A stretch of DNA of 64,000 nucleotides from Alloacidobacterium dinghuense (GTDB taxonomy: Bacteria > Acidobacteriota > Terriglobia > Terriglobales > Acidobacteriaceae), in NCBI RefSeq assembly GCF_014274465.1, contig NZ_CP060394.1, forward strand, positions 1,426,001-1,490,000, in the 5' to 3' direction. Made by a program: the position numbers and the translations under genes. Shown in pieces: positions 4,506 through 41,683 of the stretch. Within the stretch, counting starts at the first letter, position 1. Each line of letters starts with the position of its first letter. The notes under the pieces are model-generated. The model worked only from the letters and a program-made list of their open reading frames with translations, had not been told where the DNA came from and searched no databases.

Positions 4506-6380
4506 TCACCTTAAAAAGAATGCGACCGCGAGAATTGCCGCGGTTCCCATGGCGAGTCCTGCTGCATACCAGCGGACGCGTCCGGTCTGCGTGAGGCGCA
4601 AGGCTCGATTGCCGAGCATGGCAGCTTGGCCGAGGCCTCGAATCGGCAGGTCTGCCGGGTCTCTTCGGATTTGGCGGGCCACCCACAGGAAAGGACGAAC
4701 GAGGAGGCGGTCATAGATCCAGTCGAAGCCCCAACCGGCGAACCATAGCTCTTGCAGGAAGCCTGTCATCGGCACGCGTGTTCGTTGTGGTCCGAAAAAG
4801 AGATATGCGAGCCCGAGACCGATTGCGAATACGGTGCTGGCGCAGAGGGCGGTGATAGTTTCAGTGATCGGGCCCGGATGAACGATGGCGAGCGGAGGCA
4901 GTACGCTGTTGAGAAAATTGGAAAGCGCAGGAACGCCGCCATAGTCGGGTGGAGTGTCTACATATCCCCCCACGATGGACAGAACGCAAAGCGTAATGAG
5001 GGCGATGCGAACTGGTGCGCCGCTGTGCGCATGTACATGCGCTTGTTGCCGGCCGTAGAAGGCGAGCGAGATCATACGGAACGTATAAAGCGAGGTGAGC
5101 AATGCGCCGGTCATGCCGACGATCCAGAACAGGATGTTTCCGTTTGGCCCTGCCCACGATTGCCAGAGGATGAGGTCTTTGCTGAAGAAGCCCGCAGTGA
5201 TCAAGGGCAAGCCTGCGAGAGCACACCCGCCGATGATGAAGGAGAAGAAGGCTAGACGCAATTCTTTGCGGAGGCCACCCATCTTGAAAAGATCCTGCTC
5301 ATGGATTGCATGAATGACGACGCCTGCAGCGAGGAAGAGAAGCGCTTTGAAGAAGGCGTGCGTCATGAAGTGGAACATGGCCGCCGACCACGCGCCGAGG
5401 CCGAGGGCGAGAAACATGTAGCCGATCTGGCTGATGGTGGAGTAGGCGAGCACTCGCTTCATGTCGCGTTGCGCAAGCGCGCTGAAGGCGGCAAGCAGCA
5501 TGGTGGCGGCTCCAATGATGGCGACGGCGAGTTGGACCTCGGGAGCTAAGGTGAAGAGTACGTGGGTGCGCGCGATGAGATAGACGCCGGCGGTGACCAT
5601 AGTTGCGGCGTGAATGAGCGCGCTGGTGGGAGTAGGTCCGGCCATTGCGTCTGGCAGCCATGTTTGCAGGGGTAACTGCGCGGACTTGCCGACTGCTCCG
5701 CCTAAGAGCAGCGCGGCGGATGCAATGGCTGCGCCGGTGCTTATGGGCCATTGATCTGAGGCGCGATGCATCAGTTCCTGAATGTCGAGGGTTCCGAGTT
5801 TTGTGAAGAGCAGGAAGAGACCGATGGCGAAGGCGGTGTCGCCGAATCTTGTCACGATGAATGCTTTGCCCGCTGCGCGAACATTTGCAGGGTCCTGATA
5901 CCAGAAGCCGATGAGCAGGAAGCTGCAGAGTCCGACGCCTTCCCATCCGAGATAGAGCAGCAGCAGATTGTTGGCGAGGATGAGCGTTAGCATGGACGCG
6001 ACGAAGAGGTTCATGTAGGCGAAGAAGCGCGCGTAGCCCTCGTCGTCGTGCATGTATTCAGCGGAGTAGAGATGAATGAGGAAGCTGACGAAGGTGACGA
6101 CGAGAAGCATCAGGAGCGAGACGGGATCGAGGTAGAACGCGATCTCGGGTTGAAAGCCGCCGGTACTCATCCATGTCCACAGATGTTGTGTGTAGGCATT
6201 GTTGGGCGGCGGTGATGAAAGAAACGAAATGCTGATCAAAATACTTACCACTGCGGCAAGGCCGATGGAGCCTGCTCCCAGGAACGCGACGAGGCGGCGG
6301 CTGAACCTGGAGCCGAATAGAGCGAGCACCGCCGCGCTGGTGAAGGGAATCGCTACAACGAGCCAGAGGAAGTGCAGCAT
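4506..6380 (-). CDS. nuoL: NADH-quinone oxidoreductase subunit L
   Basis: A 624-residue membrane subunit at the distal end of the complex I arm. It shows the NuoL signatures LLLYLGWEGVGLCSFLLIGFW, with the TM5 glutamate of GWEGVGLCS, then GKSAQLPLQTWLPDAMAGPTPTSALIHAATMV, and RVLAYSTISQIGYM. The long C-terminal portion (about 500-624) contains the lateral amphipathic helix and last transmembrane segment, ending in a hydrophobic tail. The gene starts one base after the nuoK stop. Confidence 0.97.
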   Translation of the reverse strand: MLHFLWLVVAIPFTSAAVLALFGSRFSRRLVAFLGAGSIGLAAVVSILISISFLSSPPPNNAYTQHLWTWMSTGGFQPEIAFYLDPVSLLMLLVVTFVSFLIHLYSAEYMHDDEGYARFFAYMNLFVASMLTLILANNLLLLYLGWEGVGLCSFLLIGFWYQDPANVRAAGKAFIVTRFGDTAFAIGLFLLFTKLGTLDIQELMHRASDQWPISTGAAIASAALLLGGAVGKSAQLPLQTWLPDAMAGPTPTSALIHAATMVTAGVYLIARTHVLFTLAPEVQLAVAIIGAATMLLAAFSALAQRDMKRVLAYSTISQIGYMFLALGLGAWSAAMFHFMTHAFFKALLFLAAGVVIHAIHEQDLFKMGGLRKELRLAFFSFIIGGCALAGLPLITAGFFSKDLILWQSWAGPNGNILFWIVGMTGALLTSLYTFRMISLAFYGRQQAHVHAHSGAPVRIALITLCVLSIVGGYVDTPPDYGGVPALSNFLNSVLPPLAIVHPGPITETITALCASTVFAIGLGLAYLFFGPQRTRVPMTGFLQELWFAGWGFDWIYDRLLVRPFLWVARQIRRDPADLPIRGLGQAAMLGNRALRLTQTGRVRWYAAGLAMGTAAILAVAFFLR

Positions 6381-31615: not shown

Positions 31616-31778
31616 ATTAGCCCTTCGAAGAAAAGCTGTTGATCGATCAAGTCGAACATTCAATGATCAGCGGCTCGAACCTATTTCCCCTCATTCATGT
31701 GTACGCGCGAGGCCCATGGCCTCCCTTCTGGGTTTTGTCGCACAAGATTGTTCCCTGAGGCGAATAAGGAGAGGTCCA

Positions 31779-32921
31779 GTGACTCTATTAGACTCGATTG
31801 ACGAAGGAACTGCCCGCTCGCTGCTTTCCAGCTCGACTGACGAACGTATCGCTCTTTGCGAAGACGCGTTTCGACGGATGCTTGTTATTGAACGCAAGAG
31901 AACGGAGCGCTCTGGCAAGCCGTTCCTACTGGTGCTATTGGAGGCAGGGAACAATCAAGATTCCGGGAAGAACGGAAAAGCCCTCGAGAGTCTGATGTCA
32001 GCTCTACTGTCATCAACCAGAGAGACTGACGTAATCGGGTGGTATAAACACCAGACCACAGTTGGCGCTATGTTTACCGGCCTTTTGGCAGACGAGAAGA
32101 ACTCAATCCTGAGCATTCTTCTGACCAGGATTAGCAACGCGCTGCGAGAAATTTTGACCTTCGAGCAATTCAGTCAAGTCAGCATCTCATTTCACTTCTA
32201 TCCAGACGATTGGGATCAGGATGGTTCTGGCCGTCCGAGCAACGCTGCCCTATATCCCGATTTGTCGAGTCGTGATGATGCTAAGCGGTCCCTATTAGGG
32301 GTAAAGCGGGCGATGGATATTGTAGGTAGCTGCCTAACGTTAATTATTTGCGCACCTGTGCTTCTCTTCATCGGAGCTGCAATCAAGCTGTCATCGAACG
32401 GGCCGATTTTATTTAAGCAACAACGTGTAGGTCGACATGGCCAGTGTTTTACATTTCTGAAGTTTCGTTCCATGCACGTCAACAACGACCACAGCGCTCA
32501 CAAGGAATATGTAACGAAATTGATTGCCGGCGAAGCGTCGCGCGAGTCAATGAACGGAAACGGAGACGGCGTATACAAGCTCGCAAACGATAAGAGGATT
32601 ACTCCACTGGGGAGGTTGTTGCGGAGAAGCAGCTTAGATGAACTTCCTCAGTTCCTGAATGTTCTCAGAGGGGACATGTCTCTGGTTGGTCCTCGTCCGG
32701 CGATTCCTTATGAGGTAGCCACCTATCAGACCTGGCACCGTCGGCGGGTACTAGATGTGAAACCTGGGATTACTGGACTCTGGCAGGTAAATGGTCGAAA
32801 TCGTCTCAAATTCGACGAAATGGTTCGGCTAGATCTGCAATACGCGAAGTCGTGGTCTCCGTGGCTTGATCTCAAGATCCTCATGCTCACGCCTCGAGCA
32901 GTGCTTAAGGGCGCGTGCTGA
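31779..32921 (+). CDS. polyprenyl-phosphate sugar transferase with cyclase/GGDEF-like N-terminal domain
   Basis: About 380 residues. The C-terminal half is a priming hexose-1-phosphate transferase of the bacterial sugar transferase family: KRAMDIVGS, then one membrane helix (about 184-205), KQQRVGRHGQCFTFLKFRSM, RRSSLDELPQFLNVLRGDMSLVGPRP, and GITGLWQVNGR. These are the expected catalytic blocks. The N-terminal 150 residues do not form the four helices of WcaJ; the pattern (FLLVLLEAGN, TDVIGWYKHQTTVGAMF, VSISFHFYP) recalls a degenerate nucleotide-cyclase or GGDEF palm. GTG 31779 is preferred over ATG 31716 because AAGGAGAGG is ideally placed. It starts synthesis of the lipid-linked repeat. 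Confidence 0.85.
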   Translation: MTLLDSIDEGTARSLLSSSTDERIALCEDAFRRMLVIERKRTERSGKPFLLVLLEAGNNQDSGKNGKALESLMSALLSSTRETDVIGWYKHQTTVGAMFTGLLADEKNSILSILLTRISNALREILTFEQFSQVSISFHFYPDDWDQDGSGRPSNAALYPDLSSRDDAKRSLLGVKRAMDIVGSCLTLIICAPVLLFIGAAIKLSSNGPILFKQQRVGRHGQCFTFLKFRSMHVNNDHSAHKEYVTKLIAGEASRESMNGNGDGVYKLANDKRITPLGRLLRRSSLDELPQFLNVLRGDMSLVGPRPAIPYEVATYQTWHRRRVLDVKPGITGLWQVNGRNRLKFDEMVRLDLQYAKSWSPWLDLKILMLTPRAVLKGAC

Positions 32922-33023
32922 TGCAGACTTCCCGATCGAGCAGAGTCTTCATATCTCTCCCGCTGTTGCGCTGGTGTTGCTCGGTGAATGTCATATCCGA
33001 CAGTTTTTAGGGGTGGAGGAACC

Positions 33024-34022
33024 GTGAATTTTGGTGTAATTGGTTACGGCTACTGGGGGCCAAACGTTGTTAGAAATCTTACGAGTCTGGAAGAGTCTCA
33101 TGTCCTTGCAATCGCAGAGATGAGCCCTGCGGCGCGGAAACGCGCGCAGAAGGCGTATCCAGGCATCCATGTAACTCCAGACGCATCGGAAGTGATCTCG
33201 GCACCAAACATCGACGCGGTTGCTGTTATCACTCCTGTCTGGACACACTACGAACTAGCCAAAGCCGCGCTGGAGAATGGTAAGCACGTCTTTGTTGAGA
33301 AGCCCTTTACGAGTAATACTGCGCAAGGGGAGGAACTGATCAACCTCGCACAGCGGAAGAATCTTCGGATTATGGTGGATCACACCTTCTTGTTTACGGG
33401 CGCGGTTAAGAAAATCTGGGAGCTTCTCGACGAAGGAACCCTAGGAAAGCTTTATTATTACGATTCCACTCGCGTCAACTTAGGCCTTTTTCAGCACGAC
33501 GTGAACGTTCTTTGGGATCTTGCACCACACGATCTCTCCATCATGGACTACCTCATCAAGGGAAGTCCTGAAGCGGTTGTTGCGACGGGCCAAAGTCATC
33601 TGAACGGTCACGAAGATGTCGCGTACATGACGCTCTACTTTCCTGAAAAGGTGATAGCTCATATCAATGTCAACTGGCTGTCGCCAGTGAAAGTCAGGAC
33701 CACCCTCCTTGGCGGAGAGAAGCGAATGCTCGTTTGGAACGATCTTGAAGCCGATGAAAAGGTAAAGGTGTACGACAAAGGAGTAAATATTACGAACCGC
33801 GAGGGAGTTTACGAACTGTTGGTGAATTATCGGTCCGGCGATATGTGGGCTCCCCAGCTAGAACAAGTGGAAGCGCTTCGTCAGGAACTTTCTTACTTCG
33901 TGGACTGCATTTCGAGTGGGAAAAATCCGTTTAATGATGGATGTGCTGGTCTGCGAGTGGTCAAGATGCTGGAGGCAGCCAGCGAATCGCTCAGCAAGAA
34001 GGGGTCGCTGGTCTATCTATGA
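33024..34022 (+). CDS. Gfo/Idh/MocA oxidoreductase (WbpB/WlbA-like)
   Basis: About 332 residues. A Rossmann motif lies at the start (FGVIGYGYWGPN) and the EKPF motif of this family is seen at VFVEKPFTSN. The position directly before an acetyltransferase and a PLP aminotransferase matches the wbpB-wbpD-wbpE and wlbA-B-C sets. In those pathways the enzyme oxidises C3 of UDP-N-acetylglucosaminuronate before transamination. GTG at 33024 follows GGAGGA; an ATG at 32988 is in frame but has no good ribosome site. The stop overlaps the next start (ATGA). Confidence 0.85.
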   Translation: MNFGVIGYGYWGPNVVRNLTSLEESHVLAIAEMSPAARKRAQKAYPGIHVTPDASEVISAPNIDAVAVITPVWTHYELAKAALENGKHVFVEKPFTSNTAQGEELINLAQRKNLRIMVDHTFLFTGAVKKIWELLDEGTLGKLYYYDSTRVNLGLFQHDVNVLWDLAPHDLSIMDYLIKGSPEAVVATGQSHLNGHEDVAYMTLYFPEKVIAHINVNWLSPVKVRTTLLGGEKRMLVWNDLEADEKVKVYDKGVNITNREGVYELLVNYRSGDMWAPQLEQVEALRQELSYFVDCISSGKNPFNDGCAGLRVVKMLEAASESLSKKGSLVYL

Positions 34023-34522
34023 GTTCTTACAACTGCATTTCGGATGATGTGAAGCTGGGGAAAGACGTCCGGCTATCAAAATTCGTCAATCTATATGGGT
34101 GCGAAGTCGGGGATGAGACCAAGATCGGCGCATTCGTGGAAATTCAGAAGAATGCCAGCGTTGGCAGGCGCTGCAAGATCTCGAGTCACACGTTCATCTG
34201 CGAGGGGGTCGTCATCGAAGACCAAGTGTTCATCGGTCACGGTGTGATGTTTATCAACGACAGCTATCCCCGGGCAACTACTTCCGAGGGCGATCTGCAG
34301 ACTGAGGCTGATTGGAAGGTCGAGCGGACCACCGTAAAAAAGGGCGCCTCCGTCGGATCTGGAGCCACGATCCTCTCGAACATCAGCATTGGCGAGAGTG
34401 CGATCGTGGGTGCCGGCAGCGTAGTCACGAAAGATGTCCCACCCAACTCGATCGTGGCTGGCAATCCGGCCAGGGTCCTGCGTTATACCGAACCGAGCTT
34501 GGAGGGTTGCCATGCCCAGTAA
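34019..34522 (+). CDS. left-handed beta-helix N-acetyltransferase (WbpD/WlbB-like)
   Basis: A 167-residue acetyltransferase built from hexapeptide repeats (ISDDVKLGKDVRLSKFVN, IGAFVEIQKNASVG, ISSHTFICEGVVIED), with the C-terminal GAGSVVTKDVPPNSIVAGNPARV. The VFIGHGVMFINDSYPRA loop, with His and Asn-Asp-x-Tyr-Pro, matches the WbpD/WlbB active-site region. It probably acetylates the 3-amino group of a UDP-diamino-uronate. The ATG overlaps the stop of the preceding gene, and the end overlaps the next by 11 bases, so all three are coupled. Confidence 0.88.
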   Translation: MSSYNCISDDVKLGKDVRLSKFVNLYGCEVGDETKIGAFVEIQKNASVGRRCKISSHTFICEGVVIEDQVFIGHGVMFINDSYPRATTSEGDLQTEADWKVERTTVKKGASVGSGATILSNISIGESAIVGAGSVVTKDVPPNSIVAGNPARVLRYTEPSLEGCHAQ

Positions 34523-35759
34523 TGAAAATATCCCATTCCTTGATCTTGTAACTCCGCACGTGGAGCTTGAGCAGGAGCTCACCGGAGTCTTTCGCCGCGC
34601 CCTTTACACGGCCGGCTTCATCGGCGGGCCCATGGTGGAGGAGTTTGAGAGCTCCTTTGCTGCCTTCTGCGATACGAAGGACTCGATTGCCATCAGCAGC
34701 GGGACCGACGCACTGCGCTTTGCGCTGATGGCGTGCGGAGTCCAGCAAGGCGATGTGGTGGTGACCGTACCGCACACTTTTATCGCCACGACCGAAGCGA
34801 TCTCTCAGGCCGGGGCGGTTCCAGAGTTTGTTGATATCGACGAACAGACTTACAACATGTCGGTCGAAAGGCTGCGGGAATTTCTCGAAGAGAAATGCAC
34901 GCGCGACGCTTCTGGGAACCTCATCAGCCGCAGAAGCCATCGACCAGTAACGGCGATCGTTCCCGTCCATTTGTACGGACAAATGGCTGATATGGACCCG
35001 ATCCTGAGTATGGCCGAGCAATATGGCCTGACGGTAGTGGAAGATGCCTGTCAGGCTCACGGCGCAAAATATTTTTCAGCGAAGCACAATCGCTGGATGA
35101 CCGCAGGATCGATGGGGCGTGCCGCTGCCTTCAGCTTTTATCCGGGAAAGAACCTGGGAGCCTGCGGGGAAGCCGGAGCCGTCACCACGAACGATGCGGA
35201 GATCGCTGCGAAGATTCGAATGCTACGGGACCACGGCCAGGCTAAGAAGTACTATCACGACGTGGAGGGATACAACGGACGGCTGGACGCTATCCAGGCA
35301 GGACTTCTGAAGATCAAGCTGCGGCGCCTGTCTGAATGGAATGCTCTGCGGTGCAAACATGCGGGAGAGTACAACCGCCTGCTGTCGGATGTCGATACCC
35401 TGATCTGTCCCTCAGAGCCGTCCTGGTCGCGCGCAGTCTACCATCTGTACGTAGTGCGCACCGCCGAGCGCGACAAGTTGATTCGCCATCTGAACGACGC
35501 GCGCATCGGTACTGGAATTCACTATCCGGTGCCGCTGCACCTGCAAAAGGCATACCGCTGGTTCGGGTACCAGCGAGGCGACTTTCCTGTCACGGAGTGC
35601 GCCGCCGCCGAAATTGTTTCACTCCCCATGTTCCCGCAGCTAACCGCAGACCAACAGGCTCGTGTTGCGGCAGAAGTCTGTGTGTTCGCGGCCGAATCGC
35701 ATTGCGCGCAACCGGAATCGGCTCGGGATCTCAGCGAACCTCAGACGCTGATCGTCTAA
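34512..35759 (+). CDS. DegT/DnrJ/EryC1 PLP aminotransferase (WbpE/WlbC-like)
   Basis: A 415-residue aminotransferase. The typical blocks are IPFLDLVTPHVELEQEL at the start, ISSGTDALRFALMACG, VPVHLYGQMADMDPI, VVEDACQAHGAKY, and FSFYPGKNLGACGEAGAV, in which the lysine near residue 211 binds PLP. The end of the domain shows GTGIHYPVPLHLQKAY and VTECAAAEIVSLPMFP. It should aminate the 3-keto sugar made by the upstream oxidoreductase. GGAGGG lies six bases before the ATG at 34512; an upstream ORF extension is not used. Confidence 0.9.
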   Translation: MPSNENIPFLDLVTPHVELEQELTGVFRRALYTAGFIGGPMVEEFESSFAAFCDTKDSIAISSGTDALRFALMACGVQQGDVVVTVPHTFIATTEAISQAGAVPEFVDIDEQTYNMSVERLREFLEEKCTRDASGNLISRRSHRPVTAIVPVHLYGQMADMDPILSMAEQYGLTVVEDACQAHGAKYFSAKHNRWMTAGSMGRAAAFSFYPGKNLGACGEAGAVTTNDAEIAAKIRMLRDHGQAKKYYHDVEGYNGRLDAIQAGLLKIKLRRLSEWNALRCKHAGEYNRLLSDVDTLICPSEPSWSRAVYHLYVVRTAERDKLIRHLNDARIGTGIHYPVPLHLQKAYRWFGYQRGDFPVTECAAAEIVSLPMFPQLTADQQARVAAEVCVFAAESHCAQPESARDLSEPQTLIV

Positions 35760-35802: not shown

Positions 35803-36741
35803 ATGACGGCAAGACTAAGTTACGTCCTCATCACCCCGGCACGGAATGAAGCGCAATTCATCGAGTTGACGCTTCGATCGATGATTGCCCAAACCTATAA
35901 ACCACTGCGATGGGTCATCGTTAGTGATGGCTCAACGGACGAAACAGACGAAATTGTTGCTCGATATTCTGCTGAGCATGCCTGGATCGAATTGGTAAGT
36001 CTGCCCCAGCGCAAAGAACGCCACTTCGCCGGAAAGGTGATGGCATTCAACGCCGGCCTTGAGCGCGTCGCCGGCCTGCCATACGAGGTCGTTGTTAGCC
36101 TGGATGCAGACATCAGCTTCGACTCCGATTACTTTGCATTCCTGCTGGGAAAGCTCGCATCGGATCCCGAACTGGGCTTGGTCGGAACGCCATTCCGTGA
36201 GTTATCCGGAGAGAGCTATGACTATCGGTTCGTGAGCATTGAGCATGTCTCCGGAGCTTGCCAGGTGTTTCGACGCAGCTGTTTCGAGGGGATTGGAGGC
36301 TACGTTCCGATCCGTGGCGGTTCCATCGACCACGTAGCGGTGATCACCGCCAGAATGAAGGGCTGGAAGACGCGCACCTTTACCGAGAAGCATTGTATTC
36401 ATCATCGGCAAATTGGCACGGCGGCCCATCACCCGATAGCTGCCAGGTTCCGAGTGGGCCTGAAGGATTATGCCGTCGGCAACCATCCTTTGTGGGAATT
36501 GTGTAGAGTGGCACGTCAGATGATGATGCCGCCGCGTTGCATCGGTGGCCTTGCTTTGGGAGCAGGTTATGTCTGGGGTCTTGTCCGGCGGATAAAGCGC
36601 CCGGTTTCGCCCGAACTGATCGAGTTTCATCGGGGCGAGCAGATGCAGCGGCTGTTCCGTTTCCTGCAGCGAGGTGCGCGCTCATCGAAACAGATGCCGT
36701 GGGCGGGCGAATCTAACATGGGGAAGGGAACGGCGGAATGA
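35803..36741 (+). CDS. GT2-family glycosyltransferase
   Basis: A 312-residue GT-A fold transferase. It begins with YVLITPARNEAQFIELTLRSM and VIVSDGSTDETDEIV; the metal-binding SLDADISFD motif lies near residue 100. A later segment (GGSIDHVAVITARMKGWKTRTF) corresponds to the acceptor-side ED/DH region. There is no clear transmembrane helix, although the C-terminus is moderately hydrophobic. The sugar is not predictable. Its last codons overlap the next gene (ATGA). Confidence 0.85.
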   Translation: MTARLSYVLITPARNEAQFIELTLRSMIAQTYKPLRWVIVSDGSTDETDEIVARYSAEHAWIELVSLPQRKERHFAGKVMAFNAGLERVAGLPYEVVVSLDADISFDSDYFAFLLGKLASDPELGLVGTPFRELSGESYDYRFVSIEHVSGACQVFRRSCFEGIGGYVPIRGGSIDHVAVITARMKGWKTRTFTEKHCIHHRQIGTAAHHPIAARFRVGLKDYAVGNHPLWELCRVARQMMMPPRCIGGLALGAGYVWGLVRRIKRPVSPELIEFHRGEQMQRLFRFLQRGARSSKQMPWAGESNMGKGTAE

Positions 36742-37580
36742 AGCCGACCACGTTCACGTCCAACATTAATGAGACCGGGGTGGAAGCTCAGCCTGTCGGC
36801 CCGAAGGGGAAGTCACTGCGAACCGGCCGCCTCATCATTAATGCGGACGATTGGGGCCGCGATCGCGAAACGACCGATCGCACCTTGGACTGTGTGCGCC
36901 GGGGAACGGTTTCATCCGTCAGCGCCATGGTATTTATGGAAGATTCGGAACGTGCCGCCGGGATCGCTCGCGATCACGGGATCGACACGGGTCTCCACCT
37001 CAACTTCACGTCAGCCTTTTCGGCGTTGGGGCTTCCATCACAGCTCGTCGAGCATCAGAAGTGCGTGTCGCAGTACTTGCTACGACACCGTCTTTCTCAG
37101 GTCGTGTTCCACCCCGGCCTAATTCGCTCCTTCGAATATGTGTTGACCGCTCAACGAGACGAATTTATTCGTCTCTATGGACAAGAACCCAGGCGCCTTG
37201 ATGGTCACCATCACATGCACCTTTGCGCCAATGTCCTCTTCGGTGGACTCCTGCCTCCAGGAACTACTGTCCGGCGAAACTTCTCGTTTGAGCCTGGAGA
37301 GAAGAGTTCTGGCAACCGTTGCTATCGCCGGGTAACAGACTGGGCTCTAGACCGACATCATCGATTAACCAACTTTTTCTTCTCCATTCAGCCGCTCGCG
37401 CCGTTGGACCGCCTCCAACGGATCGTCAACTTATCCCGCCAGTTTATTGTCGAAGTGGAGACTCATCCGCAGGATCCGGCAGAGTACGCATTTCTAACCG
37501 GCGATGGAATCGACAACTTAGTCGGTACCTGTGTGATCGCCTCACGTTATGATGTCGGCCCTAGTGAGACCGGGCGGTAA
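36738..37580 (+). CDS. ChbG/HpnK (YdjC-like) carbohydrate deacetylase
   Basis: A 280-residue member of the YdjC fold. LIINADDWG (about 34-42), TGLHLNF (about 91-97) and LDGHHHMHL (about 155-163) carry the metal-binding Asp and His residues. Known relatives remove acetyl groups from chitooligosaccharides (ChbG) or from N-acetylglucosaminyl hopanoids (HpnK). Here the neighbours suggest a polysaccharide-intermediate substrate. It overlaps the preceding glycosyltransferase by four bases. Confidence 0.85.
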   Translation: MKPTTFTSNINETGVEAQPVGPKGKSLRTGRLIINADDWGRDRETTDRTLDCVRRGTVSSVSAMVFMEDSERAAGIARDHGIDTGLHLNFTSAFSALGLPSQLVEHQKCVSQYLLRHRLSQVVFHPGLIRSFEYVLTAQRDEFIRLYGQEPRRLDGHHHMHLCANVLFGGLLPPGTTVRRNFSFEPGEKSSGNRCYRRVTDWALDRHHRLTNFFFSIQPLAPLDRLQRIVNLSRQFIVEVETHPQDPAEYAFLTGDGIDNLVGTCVIASRYDVGPSETGR

Positions 37581-37737
37581 TATCCGCGGCCGATGCAACC
37601 GATGAGAGTTTCTCTTCACCGATCAAAAAGATTTTTCCCGTTCCAACGTTTGCCCCTAGGGATCGAAGATCACTAGAGTGGCGCAATAGTGCCTTAACTG
37701 CTCATTAGAGCTGGGGCAACCCCCGGTGCAGGAATCG

Positions 37738-38643
37738 ATGACGAACCAAGCAAGCCATATCAACGTTTGCATTTGTACCTACAAACGATCAGACTTTCTC
37801 AAGCGTTTGCTGAAAGATCTCCGCCATCAGGAAACGGGAGGCCGCTTCACCTATTCGATCGTGATCTGCGACAACGATCACCTGCGATCAGCTGAACCCC
37901 TCGTCGCGGAGTTTGCTGCAACCTCGAGCATTGCCGTCAAATACTGCGTGGAGCCTCAGCAGAGCATTGCGCTCGCGCGCAACAGGGCTGTGCAGAACAC
38001 GACAGGAGACTATGTCGCATTTATCGACGATGACGAGTTTCCGGAGCGGAACTGGCTGCAGGCACTGTTCCTCGCCTGCGAGAAATATCGGGTGGATGGA
38101 GTGCTGGGGCCTGTGAAGCCAGCGTTTGGAGACGGTGTTCCGGGATGGATCGTGAAGGGTAGATTTTACGACCGGGAGTGCCACGAGACTGGTCTGGTCC
38201 TTGCTCCCGGCCAGACTCGAACAGGAAACGTGCTGCTGAAAGCAAACGTACTGCGAGACATCAATCCGCCCTTCCGCCCGGAGTTCCGAGCCGGCGAGGA
38301 CGTGGATTTCTTCAGAAGAGCGATCGAGCAAGGGCGTGTCTTCACTTGGTGCAATGAAGCGGTGGTGTATGAAGTCGTGCCGCCCTCGCGATGGACGCGC
38401 ATGCACCTCCTAAAGAAAGCCCTGCTGCGAGGTGCCTGTGCGGCGCTGCGGCCAACCGTCGGCGTGCTCAACATCACACTGTCGATCATCGCTGTTCTGG
38501 CTTACGGACTGGCGCTGCCCTTTGTAGTGCTGCTGGGGCAGCACAGATTCATGGACCTGATGATACGGCTGTGTCACCACTTGGGGAAGCTTCTCGCGCT
38601 GCTAGGCGTGAATCCGATAGCGGAACCATATGTGGCAGGGTAG
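37738..38643 (+). CDS. GT2-family glycosyltransferase with membrane-associated tail
   Basis: About 301 residues. INVCICTYKRSDFLKRLLKDL is the N-terminal block; AFIDDDEFPERNW (about 95-107) is the metal/nucleotide-binding region. EFRAGEDVDFFRRAIEQG supplies the ED motif. Hydrophobic helices near the C-terminus (ITLSIIAVLAYGLALPFVVLLG) anchor it to the membrane. The ATG at 37738 has AGGAA upstream and is preferred to GTG at 37726. It is followed by 308 bases without a protein gene, which hold the tRNA-like element. Confidence 0.85.
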   Translation: MTNQASHINVCICTYKRSDFLKRLLKDLRHQETGGRFTYSIVICDNDHLRSAEPLVAEFAATSSIAVKYCVEPQQSIALARNRAVQNTTGDYVAFIDDDEFPERNWLQALFLACEKYRVDGVLGPVKPAFGDGVPGWIVKGRFYDRECHETGLVLAPGQTRTGNVLLKANVLRDINPPFRPEFRAGEDVDFFRRAIEQGRVFTWCNEAVVYEVVPPSRWTRMHLLKKALLRGACAALRPTVGVLNITLSIIAVLAYGLALPFVVLLGQHRFMDLMIRLCHHLGKLLALLGVNPIAEPYVAG

Positions 38644-38951
38644 ATATGAAATCTTTGGCCTTATCCCAAATCATGGACACCATGTTTGGTCAGTTCAACG
38701 CGAAGCTGCTACAAACAGGAACGCATACATTTTCGGGAGCGAGCTAGGCAAAGTCGCTCTGCACGGAGAGGTCGCCGCTGGTTAAGGCACCGGTCGGTTC
38801 GCCGGCCGCGATGGGTAACCATCCGAGGGTTCAAATCCCTTCCCTCTCCGCCAACTTCTATGAGCAGCCCTTGCCGCGGGCGAGATCGATTGGTAAACGA
38901 CCCGATCTGGCTGCGCGCTGGGCGTGCGCTACACGAATAAGGTTTCAGATA
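38644..38951 (+). other. 308-bp spacer that carries the tRNA-like element
   Basis: Between the GT2 gene and the FemAB-like gene. Nothing protein-like is supported; the short ORFs overlapping it are the usual spurious frames across tRNA sequence. Apart from the tRNA-like element (38765-38853) I see no distinct promoter or terminator. Both flanking genes and the tRNA lie on the same strand, so it may be processed from the operon transcript. Confidence 0.5.
38765..38853 (+). tRNA. class II tRNA(Ser)-like RNA without an anticodon loop
   Basis: Acceptor GGAGAGG (38765-38771) pairs perfectly with CCTCTCC (38843-38849), followed by G73 (38850) and encoded CCA (38851-38853). A 3-bp D stem (38774-38776 with 38786-38788) encloses a loop with the GG pair. 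The long variable arm is GATGG-GTAA-CCATC (38810-38823). The T arm is GAGGG-TTCAAAT-CCCTT (38825-38841), with one extra C (38842) before the acceptor. These are serine-tRNA features. In the anticodon arm, CGGTCGG (38791-38797) pairs with CCGGCCG (38802-38808) with one G-T pair, leaving only the tetraloop TTCG, so no normal seven-base loop can form. It could be a tRNA pseudogene or a non-decoding tRNA. Confidence 0.8.
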
Positions 38952-39860
38952 GTGACAAAACTGATTAACGTTCGAGACAGAGAAATCCATGTCGCGGGGC
39001 GGACCTTGCGCATCGCGCAGCTGCACGGCGACCGATACAAGTTCTTAGACGATCCCGTGCCGGTAATTGAGGGGTTACGGGCGGCCGGCGAGCGAGTGGA
39101 TTTGTTCTCCTTTGCGCAAAGGCTTCCTGACAGCAAGCCGAAATTCTCCTACTCATTTGAGTGGGACAATTTCGCAGTATTGCCGATAACGACGTTTGAG
39201 AATTGGTGGAAGAATGAACTCGGCTTTAAGGCGAGGAACAAAGCGAAGCAGGCGGAAAAGAACGGTGTTGTGGTACGTGAAGTTCCTTTCGACGATGCGT
39301 TGGTTGCCGGGATCCGTGAAATCTACAATGAATGCCCGATCAGGCAGAGACGGCGCTTCCCCCATTACGGAAAAGATTTCGAAACCGTGCGCCGCGAAGA
39401 GGCGACATTCCTGGATAGCAGCATCTTTCTCGGGGCTTTTTTCGACGACAGGCTGATTGGATTTGTAAAGTTAGTGCCCGATGAGACCTGCACTCAAGCG
39501 GGGCTCATGAACATTATTTCGATGGTTAAACACAGGGACAAAGTGCCACAGAATGCTCTGATTGCACACGCAGTCCGAGCTTGCGCAACCCGGGGTATTC
39601 AGTATCTTGTGTACTCGAGATTTGATTATGGGAAGAAAGAGCATGACGGTTTACGTGACTTTAAAGAGCGCAACGGGTTCCGACGGGTTGACACACCCCG
39701 GTTCTATGTTCCTTTGACTACGATGGGTCGGATTGCCTTGCGCCTGAAGTTACACCACAGCATCTCAGAGCGCATTCCAGAGGGTGTTGCGAGCAGGCTT
39801 CGCGACCTTCGTGCTGGCTGGTACGAGCGAAAATACCGTTCGGTGATGGGAGAAGCTTAG
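38952..39860 (+). CDS. FemAB-fold acyl/aminoacyl transferase
   Basis: A 302-residue protein of the FemAB/GNAT fold. The N-terminal half carries FKARNKAKQAEKNGVVVREV, a segment very like the R-x(3)-KAE-K-x-G-V pattern of FemX/FemAB relatives. The second half has FLGAFFDDRLIGFVKLV and DGLRDFKERNGFRRVDTPRFYVPL, the latter like the terminal FK-x(2)-FG block. FemAB proteins transfer amino acids from aminoacyl-tRNA to peptidoglycan precursors, while other members act on polysaccharides with unknown donors. GTG 38952 has AAGG upstream, some 12 bases away. The tRNA-like gene lies 98 bases before it, and its stop overlaps the next start by one base. Confidence 0.75.
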   Translation: MTKLINVRDREIHVAGRTLRIAQLHGDRYKFLDDPVPVIEGLRAAGERVDLFSFAQRLPDSKPKFSYSFEWDNFAVLPITTFENWWKNELGFKARNKAKQAEKNGVVVREVPFDDALVAGIREIYNECPIRQRRRFPHYGKDFETVRREEATFLDSSIFLGAFFDDRLIGFVKLVPDETCTQAGLMNIISMVKHRDKVPQNALIAHAVRACATRGIQYLVYSRFDYGKKEHDGLRDFKERNGFRRVDTPRFYVPLTTMGRIALRLKLHHSISERIPEGVASRLRDLRAGWYERKYRSVMGEA

Positions 39861-41683
39861 TGCCTGGCATTGTAGGACTGATTACAAAGCTTCCTAGGGA
39901 GCGCGCTGAACGTGAATTGGCGACCATGCTGGGCACGCTTCGCCACGAGTCGTTTTACGTAACGGGAACGTGGATTGATGAATCTCTCGGCGTTTATGTA
40001 GGCTGGAGTGTTCAGAAGGACTCGTTTGCGGACGGGATGCCGCTATCGAACGAAACGGGCGACGTTGTTCTTGTCTTTGCGGGAGAAGAATTTCCCGAGG
40101 TCGGAACGGCAGCGCGATTGACAGCGCGCGGACACAAGCTCGATTCCGCCGAGGCATCGTACCTGGTGCATTTGTATGAGGACGATCCAAGTTTTCCGGC
40201 GAGTCTGAACGGCTTCTTTCATGGATTGTTGGTGGACCGGGTGCGCGGAACAGCCACCCTTATGAACGATCGCTACGGCATGCAGCGTCTTTACTACCAC
40301 GAATCAAAGGACGCATTTTACTTTGCCGCAGAAGCGAAAGCGGTTCTTGCCGTTCGTCCCGAACTTCGTTCGGTGGACCCAGCGAGCTTGGGAGAACTCA
40401 TTGCGATGAACGCGGTTCTGGAGAACCGTTCATTGTTTCAAGGCATTTCCGTGATGCCGGGAGCTTCGCTGTGGAGGTTTCGGAACGGCGCCATCGAACA
40501 CAAAGGCGCCTACTTTCACCCTGAGGAGTGGGAGACTCAAACCGCTCTCGATGCGGATACTTACTATGGTGAGTTGCGTAAAGTCTTCGTTCGAAACCTG
40601 CCGCGCTATTTCACCGGCCGGCAGCGTGTGGCGATGTCGCTGACAGGTGGGTTGGACACGCGGGCAGTTATGGCCTGGTACAAGGGCCCTGCGGGTTCGC
40701 TACCCTGCTACACGTTTGGAGGAATATACCGGGACTGCCAGGACGTCCTCGTCGCCCGACAGGTTGCACGAACATGCGAGCAGCCTCATCAAGTGATTGA
40801 GGCTGGCGCGGATTTTCTTTCACGATTTCCTCAGCTCGCTGAGCGGACCGTATACCTGACGGATGGCTGCGCCGATGTGAGTTGCGCCCCGCCATTCTAC
40901 GTCTGCCAACAGGCGCGCGAGATTGCTCCGGTAAGAATGACCGGCAATTATGGCGACCAAATCCTTCGCCGATTCCGGGCGTTTAAGCCAAGCGCGCTTG
41001 CTGCCGACATATTTCGGCCAGAAATGCTGGCACACATTACAGCGGCCCGCGAAACGTACATCCGCATCGCTGACACACACCCACTTTCGTTTTCCGCGTT
41101 TCGTCAGACGGCGTGGCACCACTCGAGCCTCTTTGCACTCGAACGGAGTCAAGTCTCTCAGCGGTCACCATTTCTCGATAATGACGTTGTTCGGACCAAC
41201 TTTCGGGCGCCTGCATCCGTCGCCGAGAATAATATCGCTAGGCTTCGGCTGATCGCGGACGGAAATTCCGCGCTACGGCAAATACGTACCGATATAGGCG
41301 TCGGAGGTAGGAACGAAGTCTTCCCGGGTGCGATCGTTCGTCGCTACCAAGATTTTACGTTTAAGGCCGAGTATGCCTACGATCACGGCATGCCTCAATG
41401 GGTGGCCCGAGTCGATCATGCGCTTTCACCTTTTCACTTGGAACGGCTGTTTCTCGGACGTCACAAGTATTACCATTTCCGGGTCTGGTACCGCGACAGG
41501 CTCTCGAAATACGTTCAGGAGATGCTGCTTGACCCGCTAGCTTTATCCCGACCCTATCTTGATCGCAAAGCGGTGGAGTCCATGGTTCGGGGCCATTTGA
41601 CAGGTGGCCGCAACTATACAAACGAAATCCATACACTACTCTCACTTGAGTTACTGCACCGGCTCTTTATGCATGCCGGATGA
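39860..41683 (+). CDS. asparagine-synthase-like amidotransferase without the glutaminase cysteine
   Basis: A 607-residue homologue of asparagine synthetase B. The N-terminal Ntn-hydrolase-like domain (about 1-200; NDRYGMQRLYY, FYFAAEAKAVL) begins M-P-G-I-V-G where active enzymes have Met-Cys, so the catalytic Cys2 is missing. The synthetase domain has the PPi loop as SLTGGLDTRAV (usually SGG-x-DS). Glutamine hydrolysis is thus unlikely. It may use free ammonia or another nucleophile, for example to modify uronic acid carboxyls as WbpS-type proteins do. The GTG start overlaps the FemAB-like stop, so the two are translationally coupled. Confidence 0.85.
   Translation: MPGIVGLITKLPRERAERELATMLGTLRHESFYVTGTWIDESLGVYVGWSVQKDSFADGMPLSNETGDVVLVFAGEEFPEVGTAARLTARGHKLDSAEASYLVHLYEDDPSFPASLNGFFHGLLVDRVRGTATLMNDRYGMQRLYYHESKDAFYFAAEAKAVLAVRPELRSVDPASLGELIAMNAVLENRSLFQGISVMPGASLWRFRNGAIEHKGAYFHPEEWETQTALDADTYYGELRKVFVRNLPRYFTGRQRVAMSLTGGLDTRAVMAWYKGPAGSLPCYTFGGIYRDCQDVLVARQVARTCEQPHQVIEAGADFLSRFPQLAERTVYLTDGCADVSCAPPFYVCQQAREIAPVRMTGNYGDQILRRFRAFKPSALAADIFRPEMLAHITAARETYIRIADTHPLSFSAFRQTAWHHSSLFALERSQVSQRSPFLDNDVVRTNFRAPASVAENNIARLRLIADGNSALRQIRTDIGVGGRNEVFPGAIVRRYQDFTFKAEYAYDHGMPQWVARVDHALSPFHLERLFLGRHKYYHFRVWYRDRLSKYVQEMLLDPLALSRPYLDRKAVESMVRGHLTGGRNYTNEIHTLLSLELLHRLFMHAG

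Follow-up and report, generated by a model that had tools for sequence, protein, structure and literature searches.

A conserved serine-type tRNA-like RNA without an anticodon is linked to a FemAB-like transferase gene in acidobacterial polysaccharide clusters

We describe an RNA with the build of a serine tRNA that lacks an anticodon and is encoded ahead of a FemAB-like transferase gene in a polysaccharide cluster of Alloacidobacterium dinghuense. The RNA is real and far beyond chance, as 22 distinct sequences with compensatory changes were found, nearly all of them beside the same gene. Very probably, dedicated non-decoding seryl- and threonyl-tRNAs of this kind donate their amino acids to FemAB-like transferases acting on polysaccharide precursors. 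In a wider sense, they probably represent an operon-encoded family of carrier RNAs without a decoding role that serve FemAB-like partners in polysaccharide decoration, with serine, threonine and perhaps other isotypes co-inherited with the matching enzymes. The window referred to below is the whole stretch of 64,000 nucleotides of the A. dinghuense genome that was analysed, and its relevant features are collected in Table 1.

Table 1. Features of the polysaccharide cluster and of the RNA encoded within it, in window positions
Feature	Positions	Strand	Basis
Polyprenyl glycosylphosphotransferase, polysaccharide-initiating	31716..32921	+	TIGR03025, 280.7 bits, just under the cut-off of 295.55
Sugar-nucleotide 3-dehydrogenase-like oxidoreductase, amino-sugar pathway	32988..34022	+	NCBIfam UDP-GlcNAc 3-dehydrogenase best, 157.8 bits, below cut-off
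Hexapeptide sugar N-acetyltransferase-like protein, NeuD/PglB type	33941..34522	+	Below curated cut-off
DegT-type sugar aminotransferase, PseC/LegC-like	34434..35759	+	Below curated cut-off; true start probably downstream of 34434
YdjC-like carbohydrate deacetylase	36738..37580	+	PF04794; homologues in several RNA loci
Family 2 glycosyltransferase, gene preceding the RNA	37726..38643	+	Pfam PF00535
Serine-type tRNA lacking an anticodon, 89 nt with the encoded CCA	38765..38853	+	Fold; covariation in 22 distinct full-length sequences
Acceptor stem, 5' strand GGAGAGG	38765..38771	+	Identical to host tRNA-Ser(CGA)
Hairpin in place of the anticodon arm, 7-bp stem CGGTCGG/CCGGCCG closed by UUCG	38791..38808	+	Fold; compensatory changes in homologues
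Long variable arm, 5-bp stem with GTAA loop	38810..38823	+	Fold; alignment
Additional C separating the T and acceptor stems	38842..38842	+	Found in all aligned homologues
FemAB-like transferase, 302 aa, candidate partner of the RNA	38952..39860	+	AlphaFold2 model; linkage
Asparagine-synthase-like amidotransferase, similar to XrtA/PEP-CTERM amidotransferases	39860..41683	+	In most homologous loci

Structure and conservation of the serine-type RNA

The minimum-free-energy fold of the window RNA is a complete class II cloverleaf (-41.8 kcal/mol, z -2.8, with 4 of 200 shuffles equally stable), in full agreement with an earlier note on this DNA that had described such a cloverleaf with a UUCG-closed 7-bp arm. 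It consists of a 7-bp acceptor stem, a 3-bp D stem, the UUCG-closed arm, a 5-bp variable stem and a 5-bp T stem, with a single extra C preceding the acceptor 3' strand and with G73 and an encoded CCA at the end. The long variable arm is the main recognition feature of seryl-tRNA synthetase (SerRS). When compared with an elongator tRNA-Ser, the RNA has the parts that confer serine identity (acceptor stem, G73, long variable arm and CCA) but lacks the 7-nt anticodon loop, U33 and a serine anticodon. ARAGORN called no tRNA in the window and Rfam gave no match there at gathering score. The best sub-threshold match of the RNA was tRNA-Sec (RF01852), where its 25.5 bits against a cut-off of 47 place it outside the family.

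The host genome (6.27 Mb, single contig) carries a full normal set of tRNA-Ser genes (GGA, GCT, CGA and TGA, four genes) and one full-length SerRS gene, a second and partial SerRS match being far below cut-off. The window RNA shares its complete acceptor stem with tRNA-Ser(CGA). A whole-genome search with the 3' end of the RNA returned tRNA-Ser(CGA) as the only other copy. The same contig (G000 C1) also holds CCA-ending tRNA-like remnants or 3' ends at 3657412-3657490, 2822576-2822643, 388179-388246 and 879161-879229. All are missed by ARAGORN, and none of the three that were folded (all but 388179) forms a full cloverleaf.

Relatives were located via the FemAB-like protein. A covariance model was needed because a DNA-level search in 60 relatives matched essentially only the 3' ends of normal tRNA-Ser. 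The first model, for which only the window RNA was used, recovered this RNA at 84-89 bits upstream of three FemAB-like relatives, while ordinary tRNA-Ser scored about 32-44 bits. Model R2, built from the window RNA and these three relatives, detected at least 16 copies in at least 15 genomes when run on 398 genomes from the host's family, and further copies in four genomes from two other families of the same class; in these searches the best ca. ten candidates per genome were scored and absences are soft. A degenerate pattern scan of GTDB genomes, which reports exact matches only and is escaped by types such as L204 described below, yielded 22 true loci including seven new ones. Counting that of the window, there are in total 22 distinct full-length sequences, and a further one is cut by a contig end. 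The hosts are Acidobacteriaceae and other Terriglobia, among them Acidobacterium sp. S8 and Terracidiphilus gabretensis S55, and many of the loci are contigs of metagenome-assembled genomes (MAGs). One of the 22 sequences lies on a short contig of a MAG labelled Nitrospira and may be contamination. In this MAG (G425, loci L150 and L187), the serine RNA with a FemAB-like gene and a second FemAB-like gene are found on 3-kb contigs, as a result of either transfer or binning contamination.

Pattern matches L146, L154, L158-L160, L162 and L164, from cyanobacteria, Roseobacter, Puniceicoccaceae, Natronohydrobacter and one acidobacterial contig, were rejected because they were either tRNA-Ser genes with a short D loop in tRNA arrays or formed no cloverleaf. 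The cyanobacterial arrays (L146, L160 and L162) contain genes similar to tRNA-Ser(GCT) whose D loop is shortened in a way reminiscent of the window RNA, and in L146 the matching place has a long insertion and no ARAGORN call. The RNA was absent from IMG/VR viral contigs scanned with the same pattern.

In the alignment of the 22 sequences, which was fitted to the model and leans toward structure, 97.9% of cells pair, across all five arms, compared with 46-63% in slid controls. Nine pairs are doubly changed, five of them in the arm at the anticodon position, and the covariation score was reached by none of 500 shuffles. Acceptor stem, G73, CCA and the extra C are constant, and the variable arm and elbow bases are kept as well. 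The arm at the anticodon position has 5-10 bp, usually 7-8 bp with a 4-nt loop (UUCG, CUUG, CUCG, UUGA and others); longer arms are seen in L163 (9 bp) and in L144 and L156 (10 bp, with CAAA or CUAA), and for a minority with an A.C mismatch in the arm, an 8-nt loop on a stem of 5 or 6 bp is an alternative drawing. Of one measurement of arm and loop lengths, the 6/8, 5/8 and 10/4 rows were used, and pairing was taken from the 22-sequence alignment. The combination of a 5-bp stem and a 7-nt loop is seen in none of the serine-type homologues, and no loop triplet is conserved among the 22 sequences. The earlier note had suggested a covariance search for the same stem with a conserved TTCG loop near femAB-like genes: the RNA does recur beside the gene, but the tetraloop varies, and what is conserved in this part is only that a normal anticodon loop is missing. 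In the D loop, GG is kept and the A14-R15 positions of tRNA-Ser are gone; U8-A14-type tertiary contacts are probably missing, and their loss could lower charging. ARAGORN calls three of the 22 full-length sequences, none of them as serine, illustrating that tRNA finders overlook RNAs of this kind.

The L204 locus (4926-5019, genome G187) encodes, about 1 kb downstream of its FemAB-like gene, a divergent serine-type RNA that has no anticodon. Its D arm is normal in sequence, and GCAA closes a 7-8-bp arm. In L140 (G270 C151, 2336-4573), a serine RNA, a first FemAB-like gene, a frame-broken second one and a threonine RNA follow each other in series. The serine RNA has broken pairs too and the cassette looks as if it were decaying.

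The FemAB-like partner and a threonine-type counterpart

The window RNA starts 121 nt past the glycosyltransferase gene and ends 98 nt ahead of the FemAB-like gene (GTG at 38952), the distance given in the earlier note. The longest ATG open reading frame, 38811-39860, begins within the RNA, and homologues align only from about 38952. Since no promoter or terminator match was found around the RNA, between the flanking genes, it is likely co-transcribed with its neighbours, as judged from sequence. Each of the 21 uncut loci among the 23 has a FemAB-like gene downstream in the same orientation, directly in 18 and at a distance of 8-10 kb in three (G200, G422 and G423), while two loci are cut by contig ends. 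Among the 398 genomes, a FemAB-like gene is found in 14 of the 15 RNA-bearing genomes compared with 43 of the 383 others (Fisher p 5e-12).

The association is one-sided, with numerous FemAB-like genes having no RNA. For 24 of 43 serine-clade proteins in our tree, including the closest relative of the window protein (G065, 69% identity), no RNA was detected nearby, and within ca. 10 kb of these genes R2, ARAGORN and a custom scan revealed no convincing tRNA-like structure. The enzyme family thus does not strictly require the RNA; ordinary Ser-tRNA may be a further substrate, or the RNA may have a regulatory role. The earlier note had named RNA-free homologous loci, or random decay of the stems, as speaking against its idea. 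RNA-free loci do occur; broken stems were seen in L140, and the 22 sequences show compensatory changes.

The AlphaFold2 model of the protein (pLDDT 83, pTM 0.79) most closely resembles the aminoacyl-tRNA-dependent peptide synthases Sbb17/Sba18, MprF and FemX/FemA along almost its entire length (Foldseek E 2.5e-10 to Sbb17; VIA Z 17.0 to FemX 6snr, rmsd 3.7, 244 aligned). The predicted structure has the two-domain GNAT-like fold of FemX, MprF and Sbb17, consistent with the FemAB-type transferase expected from the earlier note; taken alone, this fold may also be compatible with an acyl-CoA-dependent GNAT. Sequence similarity to FemAB is weak. The Pfam FemAB family PF02388 gave no match to the window protein at gathering score and was found in 2 of 27 relatives (best E 0.0013), and sequence profiles gave weak GNAT matches, with FemAB or LPG-synthase in a few relatives. 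Phe237 is invariant and Lys238 nearly invariant among 27 sequences. Lys238 may be the equivalent of Lys305, the catalytic lysine of W. viridescens FemX.

In a sister group of FemAB-like proteins, which are about 35-45% identical to the window protein, the gene is followed immediately by a threonine-type RNA of 75 nt. Model R3 scored 82.6-103.7 bits at at least 15 places in the 398 genomes. Other matches reached at most 72 bits and are, judged by position and length, mostly ordinary tRNA-Thr. All 15 strong matches are on the strand of the FemAB-like gene, at a distance of 0-110 nt from where the aligned FemAB region ends. This RNA always has G35 and U36, while position 33 is U, C or A and position 34 is A, C or U. 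G18G19 is lost in most sequences and the T arm is abnormal, pairing to 100% as 4 bp with a 10-nt loop; a standard 5-bp T stem was rejected, as it pairs to only 66.7%. Departures in the T arm are present in both the serine- and threonine-type RNAs. In a tree of 65 sequences, the partners of threonine-type and serine-type RNAs (L204 included) are split cleanly by a branch with 100/99 support, and RNA isotype tracks transferase clade. Threonine identity is determined by anticodon nucleotides and acceptor pairs while serine identity is independent of the anticodon (PMC9976931). By these rules, each of the two RNAs retains the features read by its synthetase and drops those needed for decoding. This parallel is the strongest argument that the RNAs may be charged.

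Two further tRNA genes were observed near sister-clade FemAB-like genes. In L208 (2595-2668, G136), a tRNA-Cys(GCA) with G33 replacing U33 lies ca. 340 nt from the gene on the opposite strand and is possibly a cysteine-type dedicated tRNA. In L203 (4064-4139, G131), a normal-looking tRNA-Asn(GTT) is encoded ca. 95 nt upstream on the same strand.

Proposed function and alternative readings

We propose that the RNA would be made from the polysaccharide operon and processed like a tRNA. The cell's single ordinary SerRS would load it with serine via acceptor stem, G73 and long variable arm, with no need to read an anticodon, and the missing anticodon together with the altered T arm and D loop would keep it from EF-Tu and the ribosome. 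The downstream FemAB-like transferase would take the seryl group off the 3' end and transfer it to a product of the cluster, most likely to the free amino group of an amino sugar, resulting in an N-seryl polysaccharide. The sister-clade transferase would act alike with its own threonine-type tRNA. Aminoacyl ester chemistry favours an amine or hydroxyl acceptor, and an amino sugar is the best guess given the relatives of UDP-GlcNAc 3-dehydrogenase, DegT aminotransferase, NeuD-type acetyltransferase and YdjC deacetylase encoded in the cluster; the deacetylase could free an amino group. Bacterial surface glycans that carry N-linked L-serine and L-threonine are known (PMC10609480). The central idea of the earlier note, namely that a FemAB-fold transferase of a polysaccharide cluster is served by a serine tRNA with no decoding role, is supported by the conserved structure, the genetic linkage, the predicted fold and the threonine pair, whereas expression, charging, transfer, acceptor and glycan product are inferred.

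Alternatively, the RNA could be a regulatory tRNA mimic which donates no amino acid and serves either as a sensor of SerRS or of charging, or as a leader or signal for processing that controls expression of the polysaccharide genes. Its position between genes of one apparent operon and its absence at many FemAB-like genes would fit such a role, and both tRNA-like leaders in synthetase mRNAs (PMC9976931) and regulatory pseudo-tRNAs (PMC3399842) are known. However, a cis element would not be expected 8-10 kb from the FemAB-like gene and before other genes, as in the three distant loci, or downstream of the gene, where the threonine-type RNA and the L204 serine-type RNA are both found. Further, neither sensing nor a leader role requires a discriminator and an encoded CCA in every copy, and a match between RNA isotype and transferase clade is unneeded for regulation. 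We consider a regulatory role unlikely.

Serine-accepting allo-tRNAs with odd cloverleaves exist in Acidobacteria (PMC7609411), and the RNA might accordingly be an unusual tRNA-Ser that translates a rare or shifted codon. Allo-tRNAs have an anticodon and a 12-bp acceptor domain of 8/4 or 9/3 architecture, whereas the RNA described here combines a 7-bp acceptor with a 5-bp T stem and an unpaired C, and its loop of 4-8 nt on an arm of 5-10 bp has no conserved triplet, which makes a translating role very improbable. tRNA genes are often used by genomic islands, yet a functionless decayed tRNA-Ser or a tRNA-derived attachment site of a mobile element is hardly credible even in light of further CCA-ending tRNA 3' fragments in the host genome and of one homologue (L140) with broken pairs beside a broken FemAB-like copy, since the 22 distinct sequences, which come from several families, have unbroken stems with compensatory changes, copies retain CCA, acceptor and a fixed genetic partner, and the 3' end has no second genomic copy beyond tRNA-Ser(CGA).

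Comparison with known systems

The concept of tRNAs reserved for FemAB-type enzymes is already known from Staphylococcus aureus peptidoglycan synthesis (PMC4052509), where dedicated tRNAs barred from translation by changes in the T stem and G18G19 serve FemAB-fold transferases (PMC4052509, PMC9976931). The non-proteinogenic tRNA-Gly species used by FemX, FemA and FemB resemble the proposed system in this reservation for FemAB-fold enzymes. They retain an anticodon and supply the peptidoglycan bridge, whereas the RNA described here is of serine type without an anticodon, is found in a polysaccharide cluster, belongs to a set of at least two isotypes and has genes that travel with the transferase gene.

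GNAT-fold enzymes of the VlmA, DhpH, PacB and Orf11/Sbb17 type use seryl- and other aminoacyl-tRNAs as non-translational donors (PMC12945691); the terms 'tRNA gene' and 'dedicated' are absent from the text of this review. These natural-product enzymes have the fold closest to that predicted for the window protein. They use ordinary cellular tRNAs, while in the present case a special RNA accompanies the enzyme gene in the context of polysaccharide synthesis. Allo-tRNAs share the serine type, the unusual cloverleaf and the acidobacterial origin but can translate (PMC7609411), and differ from the anticodon-less RNA with its 7/5 arrangement and bulged C. tRNA-Sec is also serylated and is held off EF-Tu by features of the acceptor and T arm (PMC9976931), and it is the sole Rfam tRNA family with a sub-threshold match; the RNA here lacks the UCA anticodon and the 13-bp acceptor-T helix and is linked to a FemAB-like gene. 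The Bacillus cereus pseudo-tRNA tRNA-Other is likewise a tRNA-like RNA outside translation and affects the cell envelope (PMC3399842). In contrast to the present RNA, it has a Trp anticodon, is poorly charged, forms part of a longer regulatory RNA and has no described transferase partner.

In agreement with the earlier note, which knew of no system of exactly this kind, no such RNA-transferase pair is described in the literature searched, which covered mainly open-access journal articles. The features undescribed there are the complete loss of the anticodon, the linkage within an operon, two clade-matched isotypes and the polysaccharide setting. If our proposal is true, this would be, to our knowledge, the first natural chargeable tRNA without an anticodon and the first case in which tRNAs are genetically coupled to a transferase of their own within a polysaccharide cluster. 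The system would then represent a clean natural split of tRNA identity from decoding, would allow the amino acid of a surface glycan to be predicted from RNA sequence and would provide compact carriers and enzymes orthogonal to translation.
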